A DNA stretch of 64,000 nt from Lachnospiraceae bacterium (GTDB lineage: Bacteria; Bacillota; Clostridia; Lachnospirales; Lachnospiraceae): the NCBI GenBank assembly GCA_017503735.1, contig JAFVSN010000017.1:62001-126000 (forward strand), read 5' to 3'. Below are positions 1-60,000 of this stretch, in pieces; position 1 is the stretch's first letter, and each line of letters opens with the position of its first letter. Position numbers and translations under genes: made by a program. Below the pieces are notes generated by a model. The model saw only the letters and a program-made list of their open reading frames with translations, made no database searches and was not told the origin of the DNA.

Positions 1-320
1 TCGGAGCTTTTTATGCAAAAACAAAGTACTTCATTACGGATGAGGAAATTCTTTCTGCCATTTCTTATCACACCACCGGGCATCCCGGCATGACCGATTT
101 GGAAAAGGCGGTATTTCTTGCGGATTATTTAGAACCGTTCCGGACACAGCCTACAAAACCGGAGTTAAACACAATCCGAACAATCGCATTTCAGGATATT
201 GACAAAGCAGTTTATCTTGCATTAAAGAATACGCTTCGTTATCTCAACGATTCCGGACAAGAAACGGACAGCACTACAGAAGAAACAATGAAACAGTATT
301 ACAGTCGTTATGAAGAATAA
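1..320 (+). CDS. yqeK: YqeK-type HD phosphohydrolase, 3' end
   Basis: The reading frame is open from the window edge (first full codon at 3), so only the C-terminal part, about 105 residues, is visible. The segment YHTTGHPGMTDLEKAVFLADYLEP is characteristic of YqeK, the HD-domain symmetrical diadenosine tetraphosphate hydrolase of Firmicutes, and includes the late HD-domain ADYLEP signature. An internal ATG at 90 is in frame but lies inside this conserved block, so it is not the real start. The gene directly precedes rsfS, the usual order in Firmicutes, where the pair often lies in a nadD-yqeK-rsfS string; nadD would be upstream of the window. The catalytic HD residues lie outside what can be seen. 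Confidence 0.88.
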   Translation, partial: GAFYAKTKYFITDEEILSAISYHTTGHPGMTDLEKAVFLADYLEPFRTQPTKPELNTIRTIAFQDIDKAVYLALKNTLRYLNDSGQETDSTTEETMKQYYSRYEE

Positions 321-358
321 TCATATCATCGAATCAAATTTTTATTGGAGGAATCATT

Positions 359-712
359 ATGACCGAAAGAGCAAAAGAAATTGTAAAAATCGCCTATAAG
401 GCATTGGATGATAAAAAAGCGGAAGATATTAAAATCATTGATATATCAGGTGTGTCTGTGATTGCGGATTACTTTGTCATTGCCAACGGAACCAATTCTT
501 CTCAAGTCGAAGCTATGGTTGACGAAGTGACCGATGCACTTGCAAAAAATAAGATTCATGCGGAACGCATTGAAGGGATTCGTTCTTCCGGTTGGATTTT
601 GATGGATTTTAACGATGTTGTGATTCATATTTTCTCCAGAGAAGATCGTTTATTCTATGATTTGGAACGAATTTGGAGAGACGGCAACGAAATTTTACCG
701 GAGACTTTATAA
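359..712 (+). CDS. rsfS: Ribosomal silencing factor RsfS
   Basis: 117 residues, the normal length of the RsfS/YbeB/Iojap family. Family knowledge: the protein binds ribosomal protein uL14 on the large subunit and blocks subunit joining when nutrients are short. Visible signatures are the central ADYFVIANGTNSSQVEAM block and the C-terminal SSGWILMDFNDVVIHIF block, both strongly conserved in RsfS. A GGAGG ribosome binding site lies 7-9 bases before the ATG. It follows yqeK by 38 bases and precedes the GGDEF gene by 27, so the three are probably co-transcribed. Confidence 0.95.
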   Translation: MTERAKEIVKIAYKALDDKKAEDIKIIDISGVSVIADYFVIANGTNSSQVEAMVDEVTDALAKNKIHAERIEGIRSSGWILMDFNDVVIHIFSREDRLFYDLERIWRDGNEILPETL

Positions 713-739
713 TATACCACATATGAGAAGGTGCACATT

Positions 740-1816
740 ATGGATGAACAGCAACTGTTACCGAAAGAACTGAGAGAATACTATATCAAAAAAACAACAT
801 GGATTGTCAATATCGGGTTATTGGCATCCCATGTTTCTTTAGGTGTGTTTTTTTTGATATATTCCGCTGATATTATTTTCCTTTACAATTGTCTCAGTGT
901 TTTAGTCTATTTATTCTCCTTTATGTTGTTGAAGAAGTGGAATTACAATAATTCAAAGATATATATCGTAACTATTTTTGTCGAGATGTATCTTTTTACG
1001 ATTCTTGCAATCGTGTGTCTGGGTTGGAAGTTCGGATTCCAGAATTATTTTATCGCATTTACATCTTCTATATTATTTATAGATTTTTATCAAAATACAA
1101 AATCAGATTCTAAAGCAAAAAAGATTCAGTTTGGTTTGTTTAATGCGTTCCTTTATGTCTTTTTATATTTGGAAACTCAGTTGTATTCACCGGTTTACCG
1201 GATAGATTCCGATATAAGTACCCGGATTTTATTTGTGATTAATTCTCTTGCTAGTTTCGGTTTTTTAGTTATGTTTCTATTGATTTATTACAGTGCAATT
1301 TACCATATGAAATCTGTGCTTTTACAAGCATCAGAAAAGGATCCTTTAACCGGATTATTCAACAGAAGAACTATGTTGCAAATATTAAACCAGCGTTTGT
1401 CAGGAGAACAAAATGAGAATTATGCCATTGCAATGTTTGATGTTGATTTTTTTAAAGCCGTGAATGATACCTATGGACATGACGTAGGAGATAAAGTATT
1501 GAAGCATTTGGCAAAGCAATTTCAAACTATCAGTAAAGAAAATAATGATTTTTGGATCAGCCGTTGGGGCGGAGAAGAATTTCTTGCCTTGTACCGTTAT
1601 GAGGGAGATTCTTCCTCCGTTATCGGGCTTTTTGAACAAATCAGAAAACAGATAGAAGAGAATAAGCTTTCTTATGAAGATGTAGAGATTTCGATTACCG
1701 TTACCATCGGTTTAACCTTTGTGACAGAAGAAAAGGAAATAAAGGAATGGATTAAATCGGCCGATTCCTTACTATACATAGGCAAGAAAAGCGGAAGAAA
1801 CCGGGTAGTTGTTTAG
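740..1816 (+). CDS. Membrane-bound diguanylate cyclase (GGDEF)
   Basis: About 358 residues. The N-terminal half contains about six hydrophobic segments (residues 15 to 190) with no recognisable sensor domain. The C-terminal half is a GGDEF domain with an intact active-site motif, RWGGEEF, around residues 275-281, and a conserved FDVDFFKAVNDTYGHDVGD block. It should make cyclic di-GMP from two GTP at the inner membrane face. The RxxD product-inhibition site expected just before the GGEEF motif is absent, so feedback control may be lacking. I chose ATG 740 over an in-frame GTG at 731 because the GAAGGTG ribosome binding site overlaps that GTG. Downstream of rsfS, probably the last gene of that unit. 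Confidence 0.87.
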   Translation: MDEQQLLPKELREYYIKKTTWIVNIGLLASHVSLGVFFLIYSADIIFLYNCLSVLVYLFSFMLLKKWNYNNSKIYIVTIFVEMYLFTILAIVCLGWKFGFQNYFIAFTSSILFIDFYQNTKSDSKAKKIQFGLFNAFLYVFLYLETQLYSPVYRIDSDISTRILFVINSLASFGFLVMFLLIYYSAIYHMKSVLLQASEKDPLTGLFNRRTMLQILNQRLSGEQNENYAIAMFDVDFFKAVNDTYGHDVGDKVLKHLAKQFQTISKENNDFWISRWGGEEFLALYRYEGDSSSVIGLFEQIRKQIEENKLSYEDVEISITVTIGLTFVTEEKEIKEWIKSADSLLYIGKKSGRNRVVV

Positions 1817-1840
1817 TAAAAAACCGTTGTTTTATATAAA

Positions 1841-1869
1841 TTGACTTTCCTAAAATAATATGTTAAGAT
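1841..1869 (+). promoter_or_regulatory. Sigma-A promoter of the kinase leader
   Basis: TTGACT at 1841-1846 and TAAGAT at 1864-1869 are separated by 17 bases. Transcription should begin near 1876, leaving an untranslated leader of about 220 bases before the kinase-like gene at 2097. Confidence 0.75.
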
Positions 1870-1875
1870 GATTTT

Positions 1876-2096
1876 ATTAAAAAGAGAGAGGTGAAAAGAT
1901 GAGAAGATAATTTACTTTTGTTTACATGATATGTTGTTTATACAGTATTTCATAATAACGGGATACTGTTTATCGTGTTGCCAAAAGTGGATTATGTTCT
2001 CATAACCTCTCTTTTTTGTACGAAAAAATATCAATTCAAAAAATGAGATATTGTTAGAATCATTCCTTTGGCAACTTTATTGAAAGGAGAAAAATT
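1876..2096 (+). promoter_or_regulatory. Structured leader with MRR upstream ORF
   Basis: The leader begins with a strong ribosome binding site (1884-1891) and a three-codon ORF, ATG-AGA-AGA-TAA, at 1899-1910. Four pairings are visible. Bases 1885-1892 (AGAGAGGT, containing that binding site) pair with 2005-2012 (ACCTCTCT), which is followed by a run of T. A local hairpin joins 1942-1948 with 1963-1969 (ACAGTAT/ATACTGT). Bases 1977-1985 (GTTGCCAAA) pair with 2067-2075 (TTTGGCAAC). CCTTT at 2065-2069 can pair with AAAGG at 2083-2087, the kinase ribosome binding site. The last two pairings exclude each other. This resembles ribosome-controlled attenuators of antibiotic-resistance genes; that role is inferred. 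Confidence 0.55.
1899..1910 (+). CDS. Leader peptide MRR (upstream ORF)
   Basis: A start codon, two AGA arginine codons and a stop, preceded by GAGAGAGG with 7 bases of spacing, at the head of the structured leader. The minimal length and two AGA codons suggest that ribosome occupancy rather than the peptide matters. Translation is not proven. Confidence 0.4.
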   Translation: MRR

Positions 2097-2909
2097 ATGA
2101 CATCTGACAAAAATATCAATCTATGGATTGAGGGGTTACAGGGCTCAGGAAAATCTACCTTACTTCAAGAACTTGTTACAATGAACCCTCATTTAAAAGT
2201 CTGCCGTGAAGGCGATTATTCCCCGGTAGAGCTGGCTTGGTGTGCTTGGATGAACAAAGAGCAGTATGAGGCTGTATTGGCCCGTTATGAGGAGATTTCC
2301 GAAGAAATTAAACGGTATACGGCACAGGAAGACAACAAATATATCGTAATGTATACACGGATTCTTACGGACATTCCGGGCTTTCACAAAGATTTGGAGC
2401 AATACGAAATCTACAACGGAAGAAAATCCTATGCCGAATTGAAAGACATCGTTATTTCCCGTTACAAGACATTTCGTGATACCGGCTATGTGTTTGAATG
2501 CTCTTTTTTGCAGAATCTTACAGAGGATTTGATTTTATTCCACGAAAAAAACGACGAAGAAATTTTGGAACTATACCGGGAACTGTTTGCAGCACTTGAT
2601 AAAGAAACTTTTCGCCTGATGTATCTGTACAGTGACGATATTGAAGAAAACCTCCGTATCATCAGCAAAGAACGCAGCGATACCGACGGAAATCCGTTAT
2701 GGCTTCCCATGATGTTGGAATATCTGAAATATTCGCCTTATGGCATACGTCACGGACTGAATTGCTTTGAAGACTTAATTGCTCACCTGAAGCATCGTCA
2801 GGAGCTGGAACTTCGGATAATAAAAGAGATAATAGGAATTCGAGCAATAATACTTCCTTCCAAGGAATGGACAAAGGACATGTTGAAAATTGACACCGAT
2901 AGGATATAA
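2097..2909 (+). CDS. P-loop kinase/phosphotransferase-like protein
   Basis: 270 residues. A Walker A motif, GLQGSGKST, stands at residues 13-21, straight after a short beta strand (NLWIEG), as in nucleoside and small-molecule kinases. The rest is rich in acidic and aromatic residues and has no motif I can tie to a substrate. A CREGDYSPVELAWCAW segment near residues 36-51 and GYVFECSFLQNLTEDLI around 135-152 are likely substrate-pocket or Walker B regions. No membrane segment or signal peptide is visible. It is a single-gene unit: own promoter, elaborate leader, and an inverted repeat 8 bases after the stop. The leader hints at control by translation stress, so an antibiotic- or nucleotide-modifying kinase is possible but unproven. 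Confidence 0.6.
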   Translation: MTSDKNINLWIEGLQGSGKSTLLQELVTMNPHLKVCREGDYSPVELAWCAWMNKEQYEAVLARYEEISEEIKRYTAQEDNKYIVMYTRILTDIPGFHKDLEQYEIYNGRKSYAELKDIVISRYKTFRDTGYVFECSFLQNLTEDLILFHEKNDEEILELYRELFAALDKETFRLMYLYSDDIEENLRIISKERSDTDGNPLWLPMMLEYLKYSPYGIRHGLNCFEDLIAHLKHRQELELRIIKEIIGIRAIILPSKEWTKDMLKIDTDRI

Positions 2910-2916
2910 ATGATTT

Positions 2917-2960
2917 AAATTTTCAGGAAGCATCAATCATACAGTGCTTCCTGAAAATTT
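2917..2960 (+). terminator. Perfect 16-bp inverted repeat, probable terminator
   Basis: Arms at 2917-2932 and 2945-2960 (AAATTTTCAGGAAGCA and its exact complement) flank a 12-base loop. The outer A/T part of the arm supplies the U-rich end, so it can act as a terminator on either strand. It separates the kinase gene from the sdpR promoter at 2992. Confidence 0.7.
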
Positions 2961-2991
2961 AATAAAGGAGTTTGCAAATCATATATTTGGA

Positions 2992-3047
2992 TTGACAGAT
3001 ATATGATATTATGGTACACTATATTTAACATATAGGTTAAATGTTAA
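2992..3047 (+). promoter_or_regulatory. sdpR-sdpI promoter and operator
   Basis: TTGACA at 2992-2997 and TACACT at 3015-3020 with a 17-base spacer. Just downstream are two overlapping dyads: ATTTAAC (3023-3029) with GTTAAAT (3036-3042), and TTAACAT (3026-3032) with ATGTTAA (3041-3047). Placement across the transcription start and the ribosome binding site fits autorepression by the ArsR-family protein encoded next. Confidence 0.7.
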
Positions 3048-3064
3048 ATAAGGAGAGTATTATC

Positions 3065-3367
3065 TTGGGTATACAAACAACACTGAAAGCACTAAGTGAT
3101 CCGATTCGAAGAGAAATATTGCATCTATTAAAGGATAGCAGATTGTCTGCCGGTGAAATCGTAGAGCATTTTCCTGTTACGGGAGCCAGTATTTCAAGGC
3201 ATTTATCGGTATTAAAGGAAGCTGATTTAATTCGCGATACCAGAGAAGGGAAATTCATTTTTTATGAGCTAAATGCTTCCGTTTTAGAAGAAATTATGCT
3301 TTGGATTACGGATTTAAAGGGGGAGAAAGTAAATGTCACAAAAGAACAAACGTCCATTGATTCTTAG
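3065..3367 (+). CDS. ArsR-family autorepressor, SdpR-like
   Basis: About 100 residues, a winged-helix regulator of the ArsR/SdpR type (LKALSDPIRREILHLL, then GASISRHLSVLKEADLI as recognition helix). No cysteine-rich metal site is present, which argues against a metal sensor and for the SdpR branch. I prefer the TTG at 3065 because AAGGAG lies 9 bases before it and the family typically begins MG/MS-x-x-TTLKALSDP; an in-frame ATG at 3041 lies upstream of that binding site. The gene overlaps the next by 35 bases, and a dyad operator covers its start region. Confidence 0.85.
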   Translation: MGIQTTLKALSDPIRREILHLLKDSRLSAGEIVEHFPVTGASISRHLSVLKEADLIRDTREGKFIFYELNASVLEEIMLWITDLKGEKVNVTKEQTSIDS

Positions 3368-4418
3368 TTCTATTATTATTATGTTGCCTTGTTTGGTTGG
3401 AATACTGATTCGTTTTTTTCATCCAAAAACTATTGATTCGGAATGGATAGAAACTTCTAACAACGGTTTTTGGAATACAAAAATTTTACTATTACTTTTT
3501 TTTACATTACTAATCCTTGTAATTCATTGGCTTTGCATATATTTCATTTTAAAAGATGAAAAGAATTATAAACAAAACGATAAAATATTAAACCGCGCTC
3601 TTTGGATATTACCGATTTTTTCTTTGATTGGTGGTTGTACTTTGATTGAGGCGTCCACAAGAAAGGACTTTGGCTTCGGCTTTCTTGGACAGCTTTTCTT
3701 TAGTACATTATTTTTTGTTCTCGGGAATTATATGCCAAAATGCCAGCCGAATCATTCCGTTGGCATCAAGGTACCATGGACACTTCATAATGAGGAAAAC
3801 TGGACCAAAACTCATCGGATAACCGGCATAATCTGGGTGGCAGGCAGTGTTATAATGTTTCTGTTTCTGATGATATATGAGAACGGTTTTGTTTCGAAAT
3901 CATTACCGATACTTATTATTATGACGGTCGCACCAGTTTTGTTTTCCGCATTATATTACAAAAAGCAGGTGAAAGAAGGCTCTGTATCAAAATTAGAGAA
4001 AGACCTATCGTCAAAGACAAATCGTTACTTTTTATCATCCTCCTCAATCGGTGTAATCATTGCACTCATTGTGGCTGTGATTTTTATATCCGGAACAATA
4101 GAATATCGCTTTGACGAAGAGTCTCTTACAATAAAAGCAAATTATTGGGAAGACGCAACCGTCGCATATGACGAAATCGACGCTGTGGAATACCGTGAAA
4201 ATGACCTTATCGGAAAACGTGTCATAGGCTTTAGTAGCTTTTTTATGATGATGGGAGAGTATGATAATTCGGAATTCGGTGCATATACCAGATACTCCTA
4301 CAACAACTGTAAATCTTGTGTGATAATTCATGCGGATGACCAAGTTCTTATAATAAATAAAAAAGAAGAGGACGCGACGAAAAAGCTTTATGAAGCATTA
4401 TTAGCAAAAACGAAATAA
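3333..4418 (+). CDS. SdpI-family membrane protein with C-terminal PH-like domain
   Basis: 361 residues. About seven hydrophobic segments lie in the first 250 residues, including the SdpI signature GNYMPKCQPNHSVGIKVPW and the following TKTHRITG. SdpI of Bacillus protects against the SdpC toxin and sequesters SdpR at the membrane; here the overlapping SdpR-like gene implies the same regulatory pairing. The last 110 residues (YRFDEESLTIKANYW onward) look like a membrane-attached PH-type domain, not part of the minimal SdpI protein. No SdpC-like toxin gene is nearby, so the role may be sensing or resistance to an external envelope-active peptide. A GGGGGAG site precedes ATG 3333. Confidence 0.78.
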   Translation: MSQKNKRPLILSSIIIMLPCLVGILIRFFHPKTIDSEWIETSNNGFWNTKILLLLFFTLLILVIHWLCIYFILKDEKNYKQNDKILNRALWILPIFSLIGGCTLIEASTRKDFGFGFLGQLFFSTLFFVLGNYMPKCQPNHSVGIKVPWTLHNEENWTKTHRITGIIWVAGSVIMFLFLMIYENGFVSKSLPILIIMTVAPVLFSALYYKKQVKEGSVSKLEKDLSSKTNRYFLSSSSIGVIIALIVAVIFISGTIEYRFDEESLTIKANYWEDATVAYDEIDAVEYRENDLIGKRVIGFSSFFMMMGEYDNSEFGAYTRYSYNNCKSCVIIHADDQVLIINKKEEDATKKLYEALLAKTK

Positions 4419-4451
4419 CAAATACCTCAAATTATTAATTCTGTAAAAATA

Positions 4452-4485
4452 AAAGGAGAAGGCAACATTTGGAACCTTCTCCTTT
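4452..4485. terminator. Bidirectional terminator between sdpI and lexA
   Basis: AAAGGAGAAGG (4452-4462) and CCTTCTCCTTT (4475-4485) form an 11-bp stem with a 12-base loop. A runs before it and T-rich sequence after it suit both converging transcripts. Confidence 0.85.
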
Positions 4486-4539
4486 ATTATTTGAAAATAT
4501 ATTTCGACTTAATACTCATTTCGAAGAGTGACACATACT

Positions 4540-5154
4540 TTAGAACATCCGGAACAATCCGATAACCTTACCCAAAATCTCCACTTCATTCACGATAATC
4601 GGGTCCATGGTGTCGTTTTCCGGCTGAAGACGATAGTAACCGTCTTCCTTATAAAAGGTCTTTACCGTAACAGAATCCTCGATAAGCGCTACCACAAAAT
4701 CACCGTTCTTTGCGTAGTTCTGTTTTTTAATCAGAATCTGATCGCCGTTAAAGATACCGGCATTAATCATGCTGTCTCCCTTAACGTGGAGCATAAATGT
4801 CTCTGCATTCGGCAAATAATCCGTCGGAATAGGGAAGTAGGACTCTACATTCTCCACAGCCAAAATCGGCTGTCCCGCAGTAACGGTTCCTACAACCGGG
4901 ATATAAGCCATCTCGCGACGGGTAATATTAAAATTATCGTCAACAATTTCGATGGCACGCGGCTTCGCCGGGTCACGACGGATATAACCGTTCTTCTCCA
5001 GACTTTCCAGATGCGCATGTACGGAAGAAGTAGACTTTAATTTTACCGCCTCACAAATCTCACGAACCGCCGGCGGATATCCCTTATTTAAAATACGTTC
5101 TTTCATAAAATCCAAAATTTCCTGCTGCTTTGCAGTAATTTTACCATAACCCAT
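4540..5154 (-). CDS. lexA: SOS repressor LexA
   Basis: 204 residues, full length. An N-terminal winged helix (residues 1-65, with REICEAVKLKSTSSVHAHLESL as the DNA-binding helices) is followed by the S24 self-cleavage domain. The Ala-Gly cleavage site is A93-G94 (GTVTAGQP), the catalytic serine S128 (KGDSMI) and the lysine K165 (VTVKTF). RecA-stimulated self-cleavage derepresses the SOS regulon. It is transcribed divergently from a YneA-like gene, and SOS boxes between them overlap both promoters, so LexA controls itself and its neighbour. A GGAGGTAAC ribosome binding site precedes the ATG. Confidence 0.97.
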   Translation of the reverse strand: MGYGKITAKQQEILDFMKERILNKGYPPAVREICEAVKLKSTSSVHAHLESLEKNGYIRRDPAKPRAIEIVDDNFNITRREMAYIPVVGTVTAGQPILAVENVESYFPIPTDYLPNAETFMLHVKGDSMINAGIFNGDQILIKKQNYAKNGDFVVALIEDSVTVKTFYKEDGYYRLQPENDTMDPIIVNEVEILGKVIGLFRMF

Positions 5155-5203
5155 AAACGTTACCTCCTTATAAATTCAAACAAACTTTTGCTTTCTTGAC
5201 CCT

Positions 5204-5233
5204 AGTATAACACATTGAACACCTGTTTGTCAA
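5204..5233 (-). promoter_or_regulatory. lexA promoter
   Basis: On the minus strand, TTGACA (5228-5233) and TATACT (5204-5209) are 18 bases apart. The -35 element overlaps the SOS box at 5231-5244. Confidence 0.75.
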
Positions 5234-5244
5234 ACTTTTGTTCG
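5231..5244. promoter_or_regulatory. SOS box (LexA site) 1
   Basis: CAAACTTTTGTTCG fits the Gram-positive SOS consensus CRAAC-N4-GTTYG, read on either strand. It overlaps the lexA -35 element. Confidence 0.85.
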
Positions 5245-5263
5245 AAAAATATGTAAAAACCTA

Positions 5264-5292
5264 TTGACAAACAATTGTTCGCATGTTATATT
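5264..5292 (+). promoter_or_regulatory. Promoter of the yneA-like gene
   Basis: TTGACA (5264-5269) and TATATT (5287-5292) with a 17-base spacer; the spacer contains SOS box 2, so LexA binding blocks it directly. Confidence 0.82.
5268..5281. promoter_or_regulatory. SOS box (LexA site) 2
   Basis: CAAACAATTGTTCG fits the same consensus. It overlaps the -35 element and spacer of the rightward yneA-like promoter. A weaker, one-mismatch copy (TAAACAGATGTTCG) begins near 5294, downstream of that promoter's -10 element. Confidence 0.88.
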
Positions 5293-5339
5293 ATAAACAG
5301 ATGTTCGGGAATATTTGTTCTGTTTTTGGAGGTGTATCT

Positions 5340-5735
5340 ATGGAACGTGTACTTAGTCAAATGTTTTTAAACGAATCTTGTTCTTTTCGGCAGATTTCAG
5401 AAAACCGTCGAAGAAAAAAACGTAAAGATTTTTTTCAAAAAGCAATGATTGCGGTCCTTGGGGTTGCAGTAGTTGTTCTTATTATTTTACTTTTTGCACC
5501 GTCTACGCAAGCAGAAGCGGAGAGTACGATTTCTTACGAAAAACGCATTGTTTCCGTACGAGTAGCGGAAGATGACTCTCTTTGGAAGATTGCAGAACGC
5601 TTTTATTGCGAAGAAATGGAGAGTGTACCGGAGTTTATTCGTTCCATCAAAGAAATCAATCATTTGAAAAACGACACCATTTATCCGGATACCTATTTGG
5701 TAATTCAATACTATGTAAAAAAGACGCTGTCCTAG
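5340..5735 (+). CDS. yneA: YneA-like SOS division suppressor (LysM)
   Basis: 131 residues. A basic cytoplasmic N-terminus (RRRKKRK, residues 23-29) leads to one membrane helix (33-52) and an external LysM domain (71-124). This is the architecture of Bacillus YneA, which halts division during DNA damage while anchored in the membrane. The divergent arrangement with lexA and the SOS box in the promoter match the yneA locus. ATG 5340 is preceded by GGAGGTG; the frame continues upstream to 5283, but that start has no binding site and falls in the promoter. Direct family membership is inferred from architecture and context more than from sequence. Confidence 0.83.
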   Translation: MERVLSQMFLNESCSFRQISENRRRKKRKDFFQKAMIAVLGVAVVVLIILLFAPSTQAEAESTISYEKRIVSVRVAEDDSLWKIAERFYCEEMESVPEFIRSIKEINHLKNDTIYPDTYLVIQYYVKKTLS

Positions 5736-5778
5736 TCTTTTACTGACTGTTTCAACGTTCCTTTCATATCAGGTGTCC

Positions 5779-6519
5779 TTATTTTCTTCTTGACGCAGTT
5801 TCCGACTTTTTCCACGCCGGCAATGTCCCGTCGGTAATTGCATGGAATAAACGCTCCTTAGAGCCTTTGTATTCTTCATTTAAACGCTTTACCAGTTCTT
5901 TTGTATCGGCACGCTTTGTTAAACCGTCTGCCGGACACGGATTCTTTCTTACAGGAAGGTTGTACTTATGCTGAAAACCGATAATGTCTGCTTCTTCCAC
6001 GTAAATCAACGGACGTATCAACGTAATATCGGAACGATCCAGATAGGTTACAGGAGAAAAGCAGTTGTATCTTCCTTCGTACAATAAAGACATCAGCATT
6101 GTTTCTATAACATCATCCTTATGGTGTGCATAGGCTGATTTATTACATCCCAGTTCTTTTGCTTTATCATTAAATGCTCCCTTTCGAAGTTTTGCGCACA
6201 AAGAACACGGATTGCTTTCTTCTCTTACTTGAAAAACCACTTCGCCGATTTCTGTTTTTTGAACATAATACGGCACCTGTAATTCTTCACACAGTGCTCT
6301 GATTTCAGACAAATCAAAGCCTTCGAACCCTAAATCCACCGTGATTGCGCATAATTCAAAGGAATTCGGATAAAATCTGCGTAACCCTGCCAACGCATAT
6401 AAAAGAGCGAGAGAGTCTTTGCCACCGGATATTCCAATCGCAATCTTGTCACCCGGCTGTATCATATTATAATCATCGACTGCTTTTCTGGTAAAACTCA
6501 GCAGTTGTTGCAACTTCAT
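5779..6519 (-). CDS. TtcA-like tRNA sulfurtransferase
   Basis: 246 residues. A PP-loop adenylation motif, SGGKDS, lies at residues 31-36, with C105/C108 (CSLC) and C195 (NPCPADG) as candidate ligands for the [4Fe-4S] cluster of the TtcA family. YAHHKDDVIETMLMSLLYEGR matches the conserved TtcA helix. E. coli TtcA makes 2-thiocytidine at tRNA position 32; the Firmicutes branch is generally annotated as the same family, but the exact base modified here is not proven. The N-terminus is short. It converges on the yneA-like gene and has its own promoter upstream. Confidence 0.85.
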   Translation of the reverse strand: MKLQQLLSFTRKAVDDYNMIQPGDKIAIGISGGKDSLALLYALAGLRRFYPNSFELCAITVDLGFEGFDLSEIRALCEELQVPYYVQKTEIGEVVFQVREESNPCSLCAKLRKGAFNDKAKELGCNKSAYAHHKDDVIETMLMSLLYEGRYNCFSPVTYLDRSDITLIRPLIYVEEADIIGFQHKYNLPVRKNPCPADGLTKRADTKELVKRLNEEYKGSKERLFHAITDGTLPAWKKSETASRRK

Positions 6520-51756: not shown

Positions 51757-54015
51757 TTAGATAGATATCTTGTTCTCAGCGGACCTTGCACCATATGCAT
51801 ACTCTTCGTACTCATATTCCGGCAGCGGTTCCGCAAATACAAAGCCCTGCATCATATCACAACCGAGATTCTTTAACAGCTGTGCCTGACTCTTATCATT
51901 TACACCTTCCCCGACCACGTTAATTCCAAGTTTCTTGGAGGTTTCCATTACCGTGTTGATAATGGACTGTCCGCGCTCGGTCTTTTCATTTTCTAATAAG
52001 AACTGACGATCAATCTTTAATTCATCTACTTTAATCTGATATAAGGTATTCATGGAAGTTGCCGACCTTCCGAAATCGTCCATGGCAATCAAAAAACCTT
52101 CTTTTTTCAGGGAATCGATTACTTCCTGGGTCAATTCCAGGTTTCCTGCAACGGATTCTTCCGCAAACTCAAGCATAATCAGGTTTTCCGGAACTCCGTG
52201 TTTGTGTACGATTTCTTTTACACGCTTTACAAAGTTTTCATCGTAAAGGTTCTGCATGGAAATATTAATGGATAACGGCATCGGCTTAATCCCTTTCCGG
52301 ATCCATTTACGCAAACGGTTACAAAGGTCATCCAAAATGTACATATCCAGTTCCATAATAAACCCGTTTCTTTCAAACAGGGAGATGAAACGTCCCGGAT
52401 ACAATAAGCCTTTTTCCGGATGCATCCAACGAACCAAAGCTTCCGCACCGGTCTGCCTTCCGTTTGTAAGAGAAAACTTCGGTTGTAAATATACCAAAAA
52501 TTCCTTTTCTTCCAAAGCCGCGTACATGTGCTCCTCAAATTCCCTACTCTCGGTTTTGGAATTTTCCATGGTACTTTTGTACATCTCATACGGAGCTTTA
52601 AAACTGGACTGAGCCGCTACCAAAGCCGTATTTGCACAACGAATCATTTCGTCCACGGTAATATCGGTGCCGTTCATACAATAAACGCCCACCTTTAAAT
52701 CAAAAGAAAACTTTGCATAATTTCGTTCCCATCCGTTATCATCCCCGATTTTATCCACAAGATACAAAATACGTTCCTTTAATTCCTCTTCACTCTGATA
52801 CTTCAAAAGAAGAATGAAAAACATCGTATTATAACGGCAGAATGCCTCATCGGAATGAACAAATTTACTGATAACCGAAGACATAAAGGATAAGGTTTTA
52901 TTGGTTTCTTCGTTACCGAAGGTTTCCTTAAAATAGTCAAACTTATCCAGCGTGACTTCAAGAAACGCATACTTGGAATTCGGGTCTTTTTCAAAGGCAC
53001 GATTCATTCGATTCGCAAAGCCCTTGAAGTTATAAGACTTTGTAATATGGTCTACATTTGCCATACGCTCTAAGGCATAACGTTTCTGTGCTTGGAACAT
53101 GAGAAGGATTATCAAAAACACAAATGCCGCCAATGCCACAAATACCGGAACATAATCAGAAACTCCGTTGTAGTGATCCGATAAAAACGGAAGAATCTCT
53201 TCTTTTTCAATAATTGTAGCAACACCCCAGTCATTTACCTTACGGATTCCTTTGTAAGAAACGATATGTACTGTTCCGTCTTTATCCGTTACAAATTCCG
53301 TGTTACCCTTTCCCTGTTTGATGACCTGTTCCATGTTCAAATAACTATCCCCTTTTTTGTCCCACAGGGATAAGATTGAGGAATCAGAAAAAGCACCGGA
53401 CAAAGAAAGGACTGTAGTTGCACTCTGATTGATTAATAAAACATCTTCTTTTCCCCGAAACTCTGAAGTTGATAAGGAAGAATGCAACACATCCGGAGCC
53501 CATCCTGCACGAAGTACCGCCACAACTTCCGTCTTCGAATCGGAAGAAACGACAACCGGAACATGAAAAACTGCCGTCGGAGTTTCCCCCTCCGAAAATG
53601 CTGTATACGCAATTACCGTATCTCCTAACATTGCACGGACATAGTACTTACATTCTTCCACGGAAAAGCTTCCGCCCATGGAATCATACGCAATTCCTTC
53701 CGTATCGCAAACAGCAGCTTTTGAAAAGCCGTATCCTTCCATGGCAGAAACAACCTTCTGAATGCATTCCAGCGAAAATAACTCCTCCACAGACTGCGAT
53801 GCCATAAATGCTGCTGCGGCATTCATTGCGGACACGCCGTCTTCCAGACGTGTCTGCAATCCATCCGTTGCCAATACATTGGAACGTTCCACCATGGATA
53901 ATGCCTGATGGTCTAACATTTCGGTTTTTGACTTGTTTGAATCTTTTACAAAGAAAAGAACTCCGCCCAAAACCAAAACACCTAATAGAATTGTAATAAA
54001 ACTAGTCTTCTTCAT
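51757..54015 (-). CDS. Membrane cyclic di-GMP phosphodiesterase (degenerate GGDEF-EAL)
   Basis: 752 residues. Two membrane helices (about 5-24 and 290-308) bracket an external sensor region of about 260 residues, dCache-like by topology. The GGDEF domain (about 315-470) is degenerate: RYNTMFF stands where RxGGDEF is expected. The EAL domain (about 490-735) keeps its catalytic set: E525 in EALVRW, N584, E616, D646/D647 in DDFG, K667 and E703. It should hydrolyse cyclic di-GMP in response to an external signal. ATG 54015 lies 8 bases after GGTGG and overlaps the giant surface protein gene by 14 bases, so the two are coupled. Confidence 0.9.
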   Translation of the reverse strand: MKKTSFITILLGVLVLGGVLFFVKDSNKSKTEMLDHQALSMVERSNVLATDGLQTRLEDGVSAMNAAAAFMASQSVEELFSLECIQKVVSAMEGYGFSKAAVCDTEGIAYDSMGGSFSVEECKYYVRAMLGDTVIAYTAFSEGETPTAVFHVPVVVSSDSKTEVVAVLRAGWAPDVLHSSLSTSEFRGKEDVLLINQSATTVLSLSGAFSDSSILSLWDKKGDSYLNMEQVIKQGKGNTEFVTDKDGTVHIVSYKGIRKVNDWGVATIIEKEEILPFLSDHYNGVSDYVPVFVALAAFVFLIILLMFQAQKRYALERMANVDHITKSYNFKGFANRMNRAFEKDPNSKYAFLEVTLDKFDYFKETFGNEETNKTLSFMSSVISKFVHSDEAFCRYNTMFFILLLKYQSEEELKERILYLVDKIGDDNGWERNYAKFSFDLKVGVYCMNGTDITVDEMIRCANTALVAAQSSFKAPYEMYKSTMENSKTESREFEEHMYAALEEKEFLVYLQPKFSLTNGRQTGAEALVRWMHPEKGLLYPGRFISLFERNGFIMELDMYILDDLCNRLRKWIRKGIKPMPLSINISMQNLYDENFVKRVKEIVHKHGVPENLIMLEFAEESVAGNLELTQEVIDSLKKEGFLIAMDDFGRSATSMNTLYQIKVDELKIDRQFLLENEKTERGQSIINTVMETSKKLGINVVGEGVNDKSQAQLLKNLGCDMMQGFVFAEPLPEYEYEEYAYGARSAENKISI

Positions 54016-57000
54016 TTGCCTTACCACCGTTCTGATGTTTGTAAATTAAAATACCCAACAAAATTGCTACTCCGGCAATCGTAAGGAACATTAATACCAT
54101 ACCGTTCCGATCGTCATCATCCATTTGACTTACATCATTCATATAAGGGATATAACGATCAATCATATGACCGGAAAGTTTCACTTTCTCATTCATTGAC
54201 GTCAGGGACGTGTCAGCCACCGCCAAAAGTTCTGCTTCATCAAATAGCACATATTCATTCAATTCGGAATCAAAGAACGGAACATACTTCTTTTCTTCGG
54301 AACCGCCTCCGTATACCGAGCCGTTTCCTCTTACTTCCGAATATTGATTCTGGAAAGCTTCCTCCGCTCCCGTAACAGAACCGCCACCGGTACTTCCTGT
54401 CGGTCCCGGAATTCCGTCGATTCCCGCTGTTCCGTTCTTATCGGTCTGTAATGCGTCTCCGGACACATCCGATGAAGAACTATCCGACACTTCTGTTTTA
54501 CCGTTTTGAACTCCGGTTTCTGCTCCCGGAGTATTTGTTACTGCCGGGGTTACACCTGTCTGCTCTGTTCCTGATGTTTGACCGCCTCCGGAAGACGACA
54601 CTCCGTCTCCGGAATCTACATTCGTTCCGTCTCCCGTATGACTTCCCGACTGTGTTGCGTCTCCGGAAACTTCATTGGTTCCGTCACCGGTAACGCCACC
54701 CTCTGTCTTTGTATCTCCGGAAGTGCTTCCGCTACCGCCGCCTAATGCATCTCCGTTTGCATCACTTCCGTTTTCCGGTACGGAAGTATTGCCGGTAAGA
54801 CTGCCGGAGGTTCCGTTTGCTGCACTGGTTCCGTTTACCGGAGACCAACCGGACGCAATCAATCCGCTCTCAAAGGCCTGAATCTCTTTATAACTGTCGG
54901 ATGCATTTGTAATCAATGACGAACCCGTTGCGGAATTCCCGCCCTGTGCATTTCCGGTTCCTTCTCTTAAGATTCGGAACAAAGTCTCACCGGAAAGATA
55001 ATCAAAGCCCATCACTCCGCCATCCTTATAACGCACAAGAACAATTGAAGCATCCGTATCCAGATTGTTTGTCATCTGGGCAATCTTGTTATTTACAAAC
55101 TCCTTTGGAAAACAAAATGTCTCACCGGTTAATTCCGCAATACTGCCGCCATGCTCCAGTATTGCCGTCAATTCACCCAAACCGACTCCGGTTTCCAAAA
55201 TCACTGCATCGGCTTCTTTCGATAACGCACTGTCAATAGCAAACAAAGTATTATCCTTTACATACAGCCTCTTATTATTTCGTTCCATTCCCGCAGATAC
55301 TGTAAATCCATGATATAATTCAATCTTATATCCGTCATAGGTAAACTGTGCCAACGGAACAACTGTTTCAGCCACACCGTTTCCTTTTGCTTTTCCCATG
55401 AGATTTCCGGTTGTCACATCATACAACATACCGTCTACAGTCAAAGCCTTTCCTTTATATAGGTTAACAAAATTACCTGAAATCGTTGCACGACTTCCTT
55501 CCACACCGTTTCCTGTAATATAGAAATACTCATCCCCGGAAACCGTAATATTTCTTGATACATCTACCGCATTGATACGATACTCGCATTCCTCTTCTCC
55601 GTCAGTTACGGTTACAAGCAGTGTTGTCTTGTAATCGTATTGCAACGTAACCACACGACCGGAAACCGTTCCTTCCGCTATGGTTTTTCCGTTTGCGGCT
55701 ACCACATAAGAAGCTGCCGGATTTACGGAAGAAAACTCAAGATTCAACTTATCCGCATCCACACAATATGCAGTCATGGTCGGCAATTCTACTTCCTGTA
55801 CCACCGGTCTTCGCATCATCATCAGGGAACGTCCCGAAACAAATCCCGGAATCGGAACACCACCCTTATACGTCTTGTAATTATAGGTCTTTACACCGTT
55901 TGCATCAACCGCAAAACCTTCCTGGTATCTGACCAAAGAATTACCGGCCTCATTGTCTCCGTAATAAAGACGATACGTCACGTACGGCATAAATCCGTTT
56001 GTCAAACCGTCAAATTTCCAATAGGTCGGTGTGGTGGTAAAGCCCACTTGAACACCTCCGGACTTCTTTGACCAAAAATCTATGTTCTTTAAATCCGATG
56101 TGGATACCACCGACACATTATCCGCATGTTTCTGCTGTTCCGGAGTCAAACCGGTTGCGCCGTCCGCTTCGGTTCCGTTATAGTATTGTTCCGCGGTCTG
56201 TTCTCTTTGTGCGGTTCCGTATACCAATTTTGCATCCTTATATACCACACTTTCAAGGAATACACCGGTCGGATTCGAAATACGGTTTGCAATGAGCTGA
56301 ATGTGCGGATTTACAATATCCGAAGTTACACATACCGTACCGGTCATCATAAGGTCACGGTTATCTCCGTACACATCCTGATAACACCGTCCGATGATAC
56401 CGCCTACATAATCATTGGCGGATACGGTTCCCGCGAAGTAACAGCTGTATACCCTCGGAGTCTCAGAAAGCGCATAAGTCGCAGTCTTATTGATGCAGCC
56501 GATAATACCGCCGGCATTGGTACCCTCATCGGTAATGTCTACCTTGGACGGAGCTACCGCAGATACGGTTGCATTGGAGTAATTATTGGAACTGGTATAT
56601 CGTTTTGCAATACCGATGATACCGCCCACATTCTTCGCACCGGTTACGGTACTTTCCGTACATGCATTACTAAATACTCTTGCGGTACGGCTCCATGTAT
56701 CATATCCGATGTTTACATGGTGTCCTACAATACCGCCCACTTCTTCTGCGGTAATACTTCCGATAGTACAATTTGTTACTACATTATTTTCAAACAACTG
56801 CCCCATACCGGAAATACCGCCGATTTGGGCATCCTGATCAATTTTGTTTGCCGACGGCGTACCGGAATACTTATTCCACATCTGGTAACGCCAATCTATC
56901 CCCTTATTGGAGGTTAGGAGAAGTATATCCAAATATGTCTGTGCATTCTCCAGAGTCCTTCGCTCAAAATCCCCGAGAGAAGCATCGGAAAGCTTTTCTT

Positions 57001-60000
57001 CCACCGCATTCTTTCTCGCCGTTACCGCAGCCTGATACAAATCATTGGTGGTTGCGGAATCGGTCCGTGCCCACGCAGAGGATACAGTACTGTCTACCAC
57101 ATGGGTTGCCAATGCATTTCCGTAACCCACAATACCACCCACACGATAGTTTCCGTAAATATCCGAGTTCTTCACCGTAACATTACGGGAAGCACCACCG
57201 ATACCTGCCACACCACCCACATGGTAGTCACCCATCACAAACACATTATCCACCACAGACGGTGAAGCATCCGTACTGTTCACAAGATATCCCTGACCGA
57301 TCACACCGCCCACTCTGACGCGTCCAATCATGAATCCGTCCTTTACAATGATATTATTCATGGTTCTTCCGTAGGTCGTCGCTGCGGCATAACCGGCCAC
57401 GCCACCGGCATCCACATTTGCAAAGATAGCAAAATCCGTAAGGGTAATTCCGGTCAGCTTTGTGGCACCATTCATATACCCCACAATTCCGCCGGTATAA
57501 TAACGGTCACCGGATAAAATGGAAATATTCTTTGCCTCTATGTTGTTAAAGCTTGCCGTACTGTTGGAATAGCCTACAAATGCCGATGTGGTGTTGGTGC
57601 TGGTTACGCCGGTTGCATCTGCCTGTACATAAACACCATCAATTTTTACATTGCTTGCCGCACCGGAAAGCATACTAATCAAAGCTACATTATTAGTATA
57701 ACCGCCACCGTGTCTTCCTGCCGTATACTCATCTCTGTAAGAACTGTCAATAACAATATCCGTAAACCGCACGTTGCTGACATTGCCTGCCGCATGACCG
57801 ATAATACCAAAGTTTCTTGTCTTGGTTCTGTCAAGCTTCTCTAACTCAATATTCTCAAACTTAATATTACTGATACGTCCGTAAGCTGTATCGATAAGCG
57901 GGTAATTAGTTGCCCGGTTAATCCCGGTAATCTTTACCCAGTTTGTTTCTTCCACGAAACCGCCAAGCACCCGGTTTACAATGACATTTTCCTGATAATC
58001 GCTCTGTCCCGTAAAGTCGAGATTACCGTTGATACGAATATTGTACCCCTTCTGTCCGTGCTGAACCATCTTAGAGTTCCAGTCATCCGCATTATTAATA
58101 TCAAGGAACAATGCCGGAATCAAGGAATCCAGATTCAAGGATATCTGCAAATCTTCCGTTTCGTTTACCTTACCGTCAATCCCGGTAATATAGTAACGAT
58201 CCACATAGCCCTGTGCCAAAACCTCGTAAGCAATTACGGATTCGGTGGTACCGTTCTTTGTAATCTGCGGTCCGGAGGATATAGACACATTACTGTCAAA
58301 TCGTAACGCTTCCACATTATAGTTCTCCGGATGAGACACCGTTACCTTTACTTCAAACAATTCCGCATTACTCGGATTTGCAGCAGCGGTTATTTTGGTA
58401 ATTTGCACATCGGTTTCTTCAAAGGTATGGAACTTCTGATACGGAAGCACTCCCGTACCGTCTGCGGTACGCAACCAAGGAAGCTGCTCATTTTCCGCAT
58501 AGGTGGTAGTACCGATCACCGCACCGGCTCCGTCCGTTACCTCATAAGTCAGGGCAAAGCTCTCCCCGATATCCAAATTCCGATATACACCGTCTACCTT
58601 AATACCGTTGGTATAAAACTCCGGATTACAAAGCATTTCTCTGGTGAGATATACATACGGATCTTTCTTGTTTCTGGTATCGGTGTCATCTCTGTCTTCA
58701 TTATTCAGACGACCGTTTACATAGGACGCTTCCTTAAAGGTGTACAAACCGTCCTTCACAAGATTTGTCGTTGCAGTCTGAAATCCGATATATCGGCTGA
58801 CATAATTAAACTCTTCATTTCTCATGAAAATATTGCCAAGGAATAACGCATTTACCTTTTCCGCTTGATTTGCCGGTTGGGAATATGCAACCAAACCACC
58901 CATAAGATCCGAAACGGAAGAAATATCCGCATCAATGTATACATTTTGTAACACATAACCATCCGAATAGGTTTGATTAATAATACTTCCCGCCACACCG
59001 CCGGTGTACTGGAAGAAACTATCTATCACAGTATCCGCAACATATAAATTCTCCAGCGTACATCCTGACGTCACACGACCGACAATACCTCCGATACCAC
59101 CTACATCGGAAGCATCCCGAGCTGTAATATGCAATCCATCCACATAGCTGTTGGTTATGGAAATAATAACATCTCCGGAACCGATACCGGCAATACCGCC
59201 GATATACTGGGTATTTCCGTTGTTTTTACTTGTGGTGGTGATGGTTGCGTCATGCACCGAACAATTCACAATGGTATTTCGTCCGGCATGCATCATCCCC
59301 ACCAGACCGCCGGAAACTTCCGTACCGGTGATGGTAACCCCTAATACATGAACGTTTTCAACCACACTGTCTTTTCCGATGGTACGAATCACTGCCCGTC
59401 GTAAACTTACCGGCTTTTCCGGATCCAAGGCAGAAATATCCACATTTTTTACGGTTAAGTTCTTAACGGTTCCTCCGTACAAGGATTCAAAAAGTCCCCC
59501 GTACTGACGCAAATCCAGATTGGAAATGGTTTTTCCGTTTCCGTCAAAGGTTCCCGTGAAATTATAAGCATAGGTTGCCCAGTTTGACGCAGCATGCGCC
59601 ACCGGTGCCTTTCCGTTTCCGATATAGATTGCTTCCATCGGATAATATGCAAAGTCGATATCGTTGTACAAACGATAATTCTGACTTCTGTCATCGTTGA
59701 TTTTTATCCAATCGGAAATATTGGAAATGGCATGATAAAACTCAAACCCGATTTTCTTATATTCGTATTCGGAATAATACCGGCTATAGGAAATCAAATC
59801 CCTTGCGGAACCCATTTCAAATCCCTTAATATTATACTCCGAAAAACACTTCTCCGGCTTGGAAACCCTAATTCTTACATGCCAGAAATCTTCTGCATCA
59901 TACTGATTTAATATTTCTACATTTTCCGAAGCAAAATGTTCAATGGAAACAAACTGTACCGGTGTTTTTCCCGGATTATACAAAGTAAGTTCGCCGATTG

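Follow-up and report, generated by a model that had tools for sequence, protein, structure and literature searches.

The locus of interest lies near the start of the window, by which we mean the whole 64,000-nucleotide stretch of Lachnospiraceae DNA analysed here. On the forward strand, a promoter occupies 1841–1869 (extended TG; −35 element TTGACT from 1841, 17-nt spacer, −10 element TAAGAT ending at 1869). About 220 nt of leader come next, ahead of a gene for a P-loop kinase-like protein of 270 amino acids (2097–2909, with the ATG at 2097; hereafter referred to as the kinase). The leader carries a three-codon upstream open reading frame (uORF), ATG AGA AGA TAA, encoding Met-Arg-Arg (1899–1910), and ahead of it a Shine-Dalgarno (SD) region, GAGAGAGGTGA (1884–1894). 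The strong SD GAGAGAGGTG and the three-codon ORF lie in the leader exactly where the original prediction, made from the letters of the window, had placed them. An Rfam scan of the whole 64-kb window returned no match at the gathering score.

A promoter consensus scan by itself found 22 sites in positions 1–6000, compared with a mean of 20.3 after shuffling, which is not significant. We replaced it with a comparative test, in which a promoter-type pattern (TTGAC, 17–19 nt, TR...T) was present upstream of 46 of 58 related leaders, the mean after shuffling being 0.36 of 58; a looser pattern, run without a control, gave 49 of 58. The consensus promoter that had been predicted, with correct coordinates, is thus backed by comparison and not by the scan. 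Since the promoter ends 7–12 nt 5′ of the leader in 41 of the 46 promoter-bearing leaders among the 58 examined, transcription in the window probably starts at about 1876–1878.

The uORF is exactly three codons long in 47 of 49 related leaders, the two longer ones encoding MSSTR and MAGFIK, and the columns of its SD region are mostly invariant or nearly so in alignment A3 of the leaders. The encoded peptides are MRR (15 leaders), MRK (13), MRI (6) and MKR (4), the remaining 11 leaders having ten other peptides, MIR, MLK, MSR and MER among them. Codon 2 specifies Arg or Lys in 42 of the 49, and one of these residues is found somewhere in every peptide.

The leader hairpin and the proposed second gate

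The RNA from 1876 to 2110 folds at −70.2 kcal/mol, compared with −39.9 kcal/mol (SD 4.1) for 200 dinucleotide shuffles (z = −7.43). In the predicted fold, positions 1880–2017 form one long stem, hairpin H1 (gate 1), whose base, AAAAAGAGAGAGGT/ACCTCTCTTTTTT, ends in a U-run. The uORF SD pairs with ACCTCTCT, AUGAGAA of the uORF with UUCUCAU, and CUUUUG with CAAAAG; the tip is variable. H1 therefore encloses the SD, the start site and all codons of the uORF, and its base runs into T6 (2012–2017), a T-run that is mostly paired with the A-rich 5′ edge of the hairpin. The terminator-like 3′ base with its U-run (AACCTCTCTTTTTTG, 2004–2018) is highly conserved in A3. From these features H1 would act as a conditional intrinsic terminator. 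The pairing of the SD with 2005–2012, leading into T6, had been noted in the original prediction; this 8-bp match is real, but it makes up only the base of the longer hairpin, which continues through the whole uORF.

Conservation of the pairing was assessed in A3, an alignment of 58 leaders built by MAFFT without fitting to a structure, and the structure counted was the window's own fold. The 58 rows omit L157, L160 and L192 (weak match or unusual 3′ end) and keep L158, L161 and L162; L001, L003 and L030 repeat other loci and were counted once. Pairing was kept in 90.7% of 2379 cells, compared with 88.3% (SD 0.3) in shuffled alignments and at most 59.8% with slid partners. Two-sided changes were seen in 22 of the 42 pairs (12.3 shuffled, at most 17 slid), and the covariation score was 0.222 (0.183, SD 0.005, shuffled; at most 0.108 slid). 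On all five measures, pairing and covariation stood above 500 of 500 shuffles and above every slid control. Kinship of the sequences can lift counts above shuffles, and we give the slid controls and compensated pairs priority over comparison with shuffles; in L178, for instance, AUGAUCA faces UGAUCAU where the window has AUGAGAA facing UUCUCAU. Missing conservation or covariation of the leader had been named beforehand as what would speak against it; both were looked for in the related leaders, and both were found.

Within the 3′ arm of H1 lies a switch strand, GTTGCCAAA (1977–1985), which can leave H1 and pair with TTTGGCAAC (2067–2075). This exact complementarity was part of the original prediction, and it is conserved as an element of a second gate. 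In the window, gate 2 is the hairpin TCCTTT(GGCAAC...)AAAGGA (2064–2089), which contains TTTGGCAAC and is predicted to hide the kinase SD; as also predicted, CCTTT at 2065–2069 is able to pair with AAAGG of that SD. A downstream complement of the 9-nt switch strand, with at least 8 of 9 matches, is present in 44 of the 58 leaders, and in 36 of the 58 at most 5 of 100 shuffles were equally good. The motif TTTGGC, complementary to H1, occurs within 200 nt downstream of H1 in 43 of 58 leaders (6.6 in shuffles), and in 27 of 58 a motif of this type opens the loop of a terminator-like hairpin that stands where the window has gate 2 (mean of 0.25 in 20 shuffle rounds), as in GGAACTG(TTTGGCAACGAA)TGGTTCT followed by TTTTTT. 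These counts come from the complement and motif tests; a separate hairpin classifier missed gate 2 of the window, whose loop exceeds the length it allows. Instead of the terminator form, the window and its near relatives have the TCCTTT/AAAGGA hairpin over the kinase SD. The two competing pairings originally proposed thus appear to be one conserved device that comes in two forms.

Distribution of the leader and the genes behind it

A covariance model of the leader, R1, was built from 14 sequences and matches positions 1878–2021 of the window. At E up to 0.01 it found matches in 52 of 397 genomes of the family. We rejected two of these as false (L159 at E 3.1e-5 and L193 at E 0.007), since no uORF could be found in them and the genes that come next are unrelated or absent. 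Five others (L158, L160, L161, L162 and L192; E 2.1e-5 to 0.006) are weak and were counted as real partly for their uORF and ABC-F gene, a choice that favours the reading of the leader as an attenuator. The next gene, defined as the first listed ORF that matches a reference or exceeds 150 amino acids (shorter ORFs being left out), encodes an ABC-F protein in 45 of the 50 genomes judged real, and in 40 of 45 when all seven weak matches are set aside and those at E up to 1.2e-7 kept. In a sample of the class, R1 had matches at E up to 0.001 in 2 of 391 genomes; because both fall within the family, the leader looks family-restricted at the sensitivity of R1. Searched against plasmids, the leader gave short matches at E up to 1 in 18 records, the best ten of the 18 covering at most 18% of the query.

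Forty-three of the 45 ABC-F proteins are 50–75% identical to the Lsa-like protein of L039, in L164 over a shortened gene; those of L153 and L160 show 22–23% identity to it. The ABC-F proteins of L036 and L039, the two scanned in this way, are Lsa-like in that NF000167 is their best match (615 and 633 bits), yet they score under its cut-off of 750; both pass the ribosomal-protection cut-off of NF000355 (417 and 444 bits versus 380). The window's own genome contained no Lsa-like ABC-F that we could find, the best-scoring match being at 28% identity.

The five next genes of other kinds encode, by Pfam, the kinase (window), a kinase-GNAT fusion (L191), a GNAT protein (L166), a MATE protein (L144) and a metallophosphoesterase (L170). 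Just 5′ of the MATE gene in L144, a 12-residue ABC-F-like start followed by a stop remains; this remnant suggests a way in which a new gene may take over the leader. In the fusion (L191:493–1764; the same gene in L003), a C-terminal GNAT domain follows the kinase behind the same leader, and this GNAT part is 60% identical to the lone GNAT protein behind the leader in L166. In L170 (257–1661), the leader that precedes the metallophosphoesterase gene has a second terminator; by eye, a similar-looking gene stands just 3′ of the kinase in L103 and L105. In L030/L164, behind the leader come an ABC-F gene truncated at about 140 amino acids and a kinase that lacks its N-terminal part and is joined to GNAT, either a natural deletion or an assembly fault.

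The kinase and its neighbours

Across the 47 rows of alignment A2, the kinase has an invariant GxQGxGKST P-loop (GLQGSGKST in the window), E38-G39, P43, L46, W48-C49, FHxDLEQYExxN, E134-C135, Q139-N140 and ERxD; Walker A and the residues that are candidates for the catalytic acid and the basic lid are invariant. The dN/dS ratio between the window and its close relatives is 0.06–0.09 in the three of five pairs that could be computed, synonymous sites being saturated in the other two.

All Pfam matches of the kinase were under the curated cut-offs, which leaves it in no curated family. Membership in the deoxynucleoside kinases (PF01712) was not accepted for the window protein, at 14.4 bits versus a cut-off of 27; PF01712 matched 19 of the 47 A2 rows at E up to 0.01 (best 5.3e-5), and hhalign against one deoxynucleoside kinase gave a probability of 2.3, with an alignment confined to the stretch between P-loop and REGDYSP motif. 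This family had come into consideration for its resemblance to the kinase in the REGDYSPVELAW and FECS motifs. A match to PRK06761 (NF005250) covers residues 10–252 and scores 120.8 bits, under the equivalog cut-off of 270, and by sequence the kinase is distant kin of this hypothetical protein. Weak P-loop-type matches were all that PADLOC gave (best PtuA, E 1.3e-5), and we took them as shared ATPase motifs. A sequence search of the PDB found no solved relative, with nothing better than E 0.6; tblastn against plasmid and phage collections did not find the kinase, and among viral contigs 95 stretches fit a pattern, none of which was confirmed. Nine of 398 genomes in a sample of the phylum had matches, three of them strong and all within the family and the other six at E 1.1e-5 to 2.5e-17; judged by these searches, the kinase is rare and distant outside the family.

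The leader stands directly before the kinase in five close relatives (L031–L035; 76–81% kinase identity) and also in L003/L191, L037 and L038, at 55–65% identity. Eight loci (L036, L039, L040, L042, L172, L177, L183 and L153) have the order leader, ABC-F, kinase. Within the flank examined, the leader was present at 12 of 81 kinase loci (13 with a weak match in L048), and a genome of the same genus (L002/G115) has the kinase without it; the kinase therefore does not need the leader everywhere, as far as these loci tell. In a tree of 52 kinases, the nine leader-kinase rows and seven of the eight leader-ABC-F-kinase rows fall into one set of 20 (support 100/99), with L183 placed elsewhere. Both arrangements are intermingled on the tree and require four changes (3–4 in the 5–95% range of bootstraps, at least 2 by well-supported branches), and as few changes were needed in 47 of 500 label shuffles. 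It is thus probable that an ABC-F gene between leader and kinase was lost or gained on more than one occasion, the leader staying in place.

Under the rule applied, an upstream ORF was present at 95 of 110 kinase loci, and at 19 of the 95 we read its product as an ABC-F protein, of Lsa-like type in 8 and of a second type in 11 (22–24% identity between the types); L054 has an ABC-F gene downstream of the kinase. Matches to ABC proteins at L041, L047, L052 and L057 cover part of the query and look like exporters. By Pfam, the upstream neighbours include GNAT (27 of 73) and ABC_tran (17 of 73), and the downstream neighbours APH (14 of 70) and GNAT (7 of 70); some kinase loci may share the same or close genomes, so that these counts are not independent. 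As a rough control, GNAT was assigned to 4 of 51 ORFs (of the window's 52 others), and ABC_tran and APH were absent there among families with at least two members.

Several of these neighbourhoods have features of their own. The second ABC-F type is paired with the kinase in L045, L098, L103, L104, L105, L013, L017 and L019/L153, again at 22–24% identity to the Lsa-like one; the three scanned scored 279–310 bits, under the ribosomal-protection cut-off of 380. In L098, the ABC-F and kinase genes are followed by a glycosyltransferase-like gene, which we take to resemble those of drug-inactivating glycosyltransferases. Directly upstream of the kinase in L050 (1828–2994) and L027 is a gene for another kind of P-loop protein, which ends in an acetyltransferase-like part at its C-terminus; by BLAST it clusters with other upstream neighbours in a group of 18, some of which are shorter.

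Judged from its sequence context, the kinase seems somewhat more apt to take part in resistance to a ribosome-targeting compound than to do something else. The chief competing explanation, in which the leader was left by chance after loss of an ABC-F gene and the kinase has a housekeeping role, is a real possibility, though we lean against it. It agrees with the lack of the leader at most kinase loci searched, and the purifying selection seen would be expected equally of a housekeeping gene. The presence of the kinase is patchy, however, at 36 of 397 genomes of the family, with one copy in the window's own genome; its neighbours are rich in GNAT, ABC and APH genes; and, with 3–4 label changes needed for the leader-kinase arrangement, the leader was probably kept more than once. 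For the resistance role that we favour, a possible parallel is the producer of hygromycin A, where the phosphotransferase Hyg21 is proposed to serve self-resistance together with the transporters Hyg19 and Hyg28 (PMC6804068). There too a proposed drug kinase is found beside other resistance proteins, against a peptidyl-transferase inhibitor; the parallel goes no further than analogy.

More tentatively, at a little under even odds, the kinase may be a drug kinase that belongs to a new P-loop phosphotransferase family of the Lachnospiraceae. We hold the wider form of this proposal just as tentatively: kinases that stand beside Lsa-like ABC-F and GNAT proteins, and can be fused to the latter, would be induced by a modular sensor of early stalling that is re-used for ABC-F, kinase, kinase-GNAT, GNAT, MATE and metallophosphoesterase genes. 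Bifunctional drug-modifying enzymes such as AAC(6′)-APH(2″) likewise combine kinase and GNAT acetyltransferase in a single polypeptide. The fusion protein of L191 may differ from them in domain order and substrate, and does differ in its kinase, which is of the P-loop type and has no APH match in Pfam.

Computed effect of a ribosome on the uORF and comparison with known attenuators

The effect of a ribosome on leader folding was computed for 20 leaders chosen from the 58, with three assumed footprints each; these are equilibrium folds, without kinetics. When the ribosome was absent, the probability of the H1 base was 0.76–0.99 and that of the helix between switch strand and complement (the switch helix) 0.00 in the 20 leaders. 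Placing codon 1 in the P site brought the H1 base down to at most 0.01 in 20 of 20; with codon 3 there, it was back to at least 0.4 in 11 of 20 (0.77 in the window). The switch helix reached at least 0.3 at codon 1 or 2, with some footprint, in 13 of the 20 leaders, and stayed below 0.3 at codons 1 and 2 with all three footprints in the other seven (L037, L148, L150, L163, L167, L177 and L191). For the window, a ribosome on codon 2 raised the switch helix from 0 to 0.81 and the unpaired probability of the kinase SD from 0.36 to 0.63. With the ribosome on codon 1 or 3, the SD remained shut under the footprints of that computation (0.37 and 0.38 unpaired), and at codon 1 the switch helix depended on the footprint (0.01, 0.08 and 0.83). 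The computed folds thus speak for stalling at the uORF start, as would fit drugs that block early peptide bonds.

These results lead us to read the region, with a probability of roughly 0.84, as a functional uORF attenuator of the kind found before antibiotic-resistance (ARE) ABC-F genes, taken over from an ABC-F operon and now standing before the kinase. Attenuation as in erm, cat and ABC-F genes had been suggested from the start; it is strongly backed, because the same leader precedes an ABC-F gene in 45 of 50 genomes. Transcription would start at about 1876 and, when the uORF is unoccupied, the RNA would close into H1, whose base and U-run would stop RNA polymerase at gate 1. In transcripts that escape, the kinase ribosome binding site would still be hidden in the TCCTTT/AAAGGA hairpin of gate 2. 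A drug or other block that freezes a ribosome on codon 1 or 2 would cover the 5′ base of H1; with H1 blocked, the polymerase would continue, and GTTGCCAAA would be free to pair with TTTGGCAAC, exposing the kinase SD. The kinase would then be made mainly under early ribosome stalling and would most likely aid resistance to a ribosome-targeting small molecule, probably by phosphorylating it.

It is unlikely, though worth weighing, that the leader senses the general status of translation instead of a drug, the kinase being switched on whenever initiation slows. With a uORF this short, any early block would take effect, and vmlR expression is tied also to (p)ppGpp (PMC9226507); the linkage with ABC-F, GNAT and APH genes points instead to toxic small molecules. 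We consider it very improbable that charged tRNA-Arg is sensed through the Arg codons, as in amino-acid attenuation, and that the kinase is metabolic. Arg or Lys does occur in all 49 uORFs, at codon 2 in 42, and the same Arg residue is kept with different codons (AGA, AGG, CGG, CGA). Yet codon 2 or 3 can also specify I, L, S, E, K or M, a starvation sensor would hardly make do with two codons, and the next genes are ABC-F genes (45 of 50) and not arginine genes. Of the two triggers originally put forward, translation inhibitors and tRNA state, the evidence thus backs attenuation of the inhibitor type and makes tRNA state less likely, the uORF codons being variable. Least credible of all is that H1 is merely a bidirectional terminator of the upstream GGDEF gene with the uORF as a by-product: H1 is nearly an inverted repeat that the model matches on the minus strand too (47.7 bits) and it follows the GGDEF stop at 1816, but a conserved promoter lies ahead of it (46 of 58), and the SD and three-codon uORF are kept behind differing upstream genes, namely one cluster in L031–L033 and L035 (with a PBP_like_2 match in L031) and the GGDEF gene in the window and L034.

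Drug-responsive attenuation by the leader, the reading we prefer, would place it in a class that is already known from cplR and vmlR. The cplR gene of Clostridioides difficile has a 212-nt leader with the uORF MRI, and its reporter was induced by lincomycin and retapamulin and became inactive once the uORF start codon was changed (PMC10201436). Likenesses to the window leader are the three-codon uORF (MRI in cplR; consensus MR[I/M]), the terminator and the hidden SD of the main gene; transcription and translation attenuation are combined in cplR, whose target is an ARE ABC-F gene (PMC10201436), and the same combination is predicted for the window leader. In cplR the uORF hairpin stands apart from the terminator, and it is the latter that hides the SD (PMC10201436), whereas in the window leader the first terminator-like hairpin contains the uORF, the second gate is a separate one and the target is a kinase. 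The uORF of LsaA is given as MAGN (PMC10201436). In Bacillus subtilis, the 219-nt vmlR leader is described as mediating lincomycin induction through the uORF MIN, with MDN, MDK and MRK also tested (PMC9226507). It shares the three-codon uORF and has an anti-antiterminator, a terminator and an SD-sequestering hairpin; it differs, by the same account, in that, under repression, the SD of its uORF lies unpaired ahead of the first stem-loop, in its ABC-F target and in the bacteria concerned (PMC9226507).

Of the features typical of the class, the window has a tiny uORF, preceded by a strong SD and close to where the transcript would begin, translation of the uORF being predicted, and in 20 of 20 folded leaders formation of the terminator-like hairpin, with termination likewise predicted, excludes a ribosome on the uORF; the target in the window is a kinase and not an ARE ABC-F gene. 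Sequence kinship with the cplR and vmlR leaders was not detected, and R1 found nothing outside the family in 391 genomes of the class. The window leader resembles them in how it would work and differs from them in layout. The literature searched, at the level of titles and abstract openings, held no description of this leader family or of the kinase.

To our knowledge, most descriptions of such leaders deal with one gene at a time, each known or suspected to confer resistance. A leader model as the starting point picks out genes with no evident tie to resistance, among them those of a kinase family that Pfam does not assign. Should the kinase inactivate a ribosome-targeting compound, it would represent a new type of enzyme for drug modification in gut and rumen bacteria, and if the new-family proposal holds, the leader could serve as a genome-mining tag for new resistance enzymes. 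The design, with the uORF inside the first terminator-like hairpin and the same strand opening the second gate, predicts the codon at which the required stall would occur.

Further features were seen elsewhere in the window. Downstream of the kinase, at 3041–4418, a gene for an SdpR-type autorepressor (NF033789, above cut-off) overlaps a gene for an SdpI/YfhL-family membrane protein, with a promoter-like site at 2992–3020 ahead of the former; by sequence this looks like an SdpR-SdpI immunity-type operon. A minus-strand open frame of about 3,320 codons (54005–63964) reaches almost to the end of the window. At 4540–5735, a gene for a LexA-like repressor on the minus strand is divergent from one for a small membrane protein with a LysM-like end (5283–5735), a pair that we take to be reminiscent of LexA/YneA.
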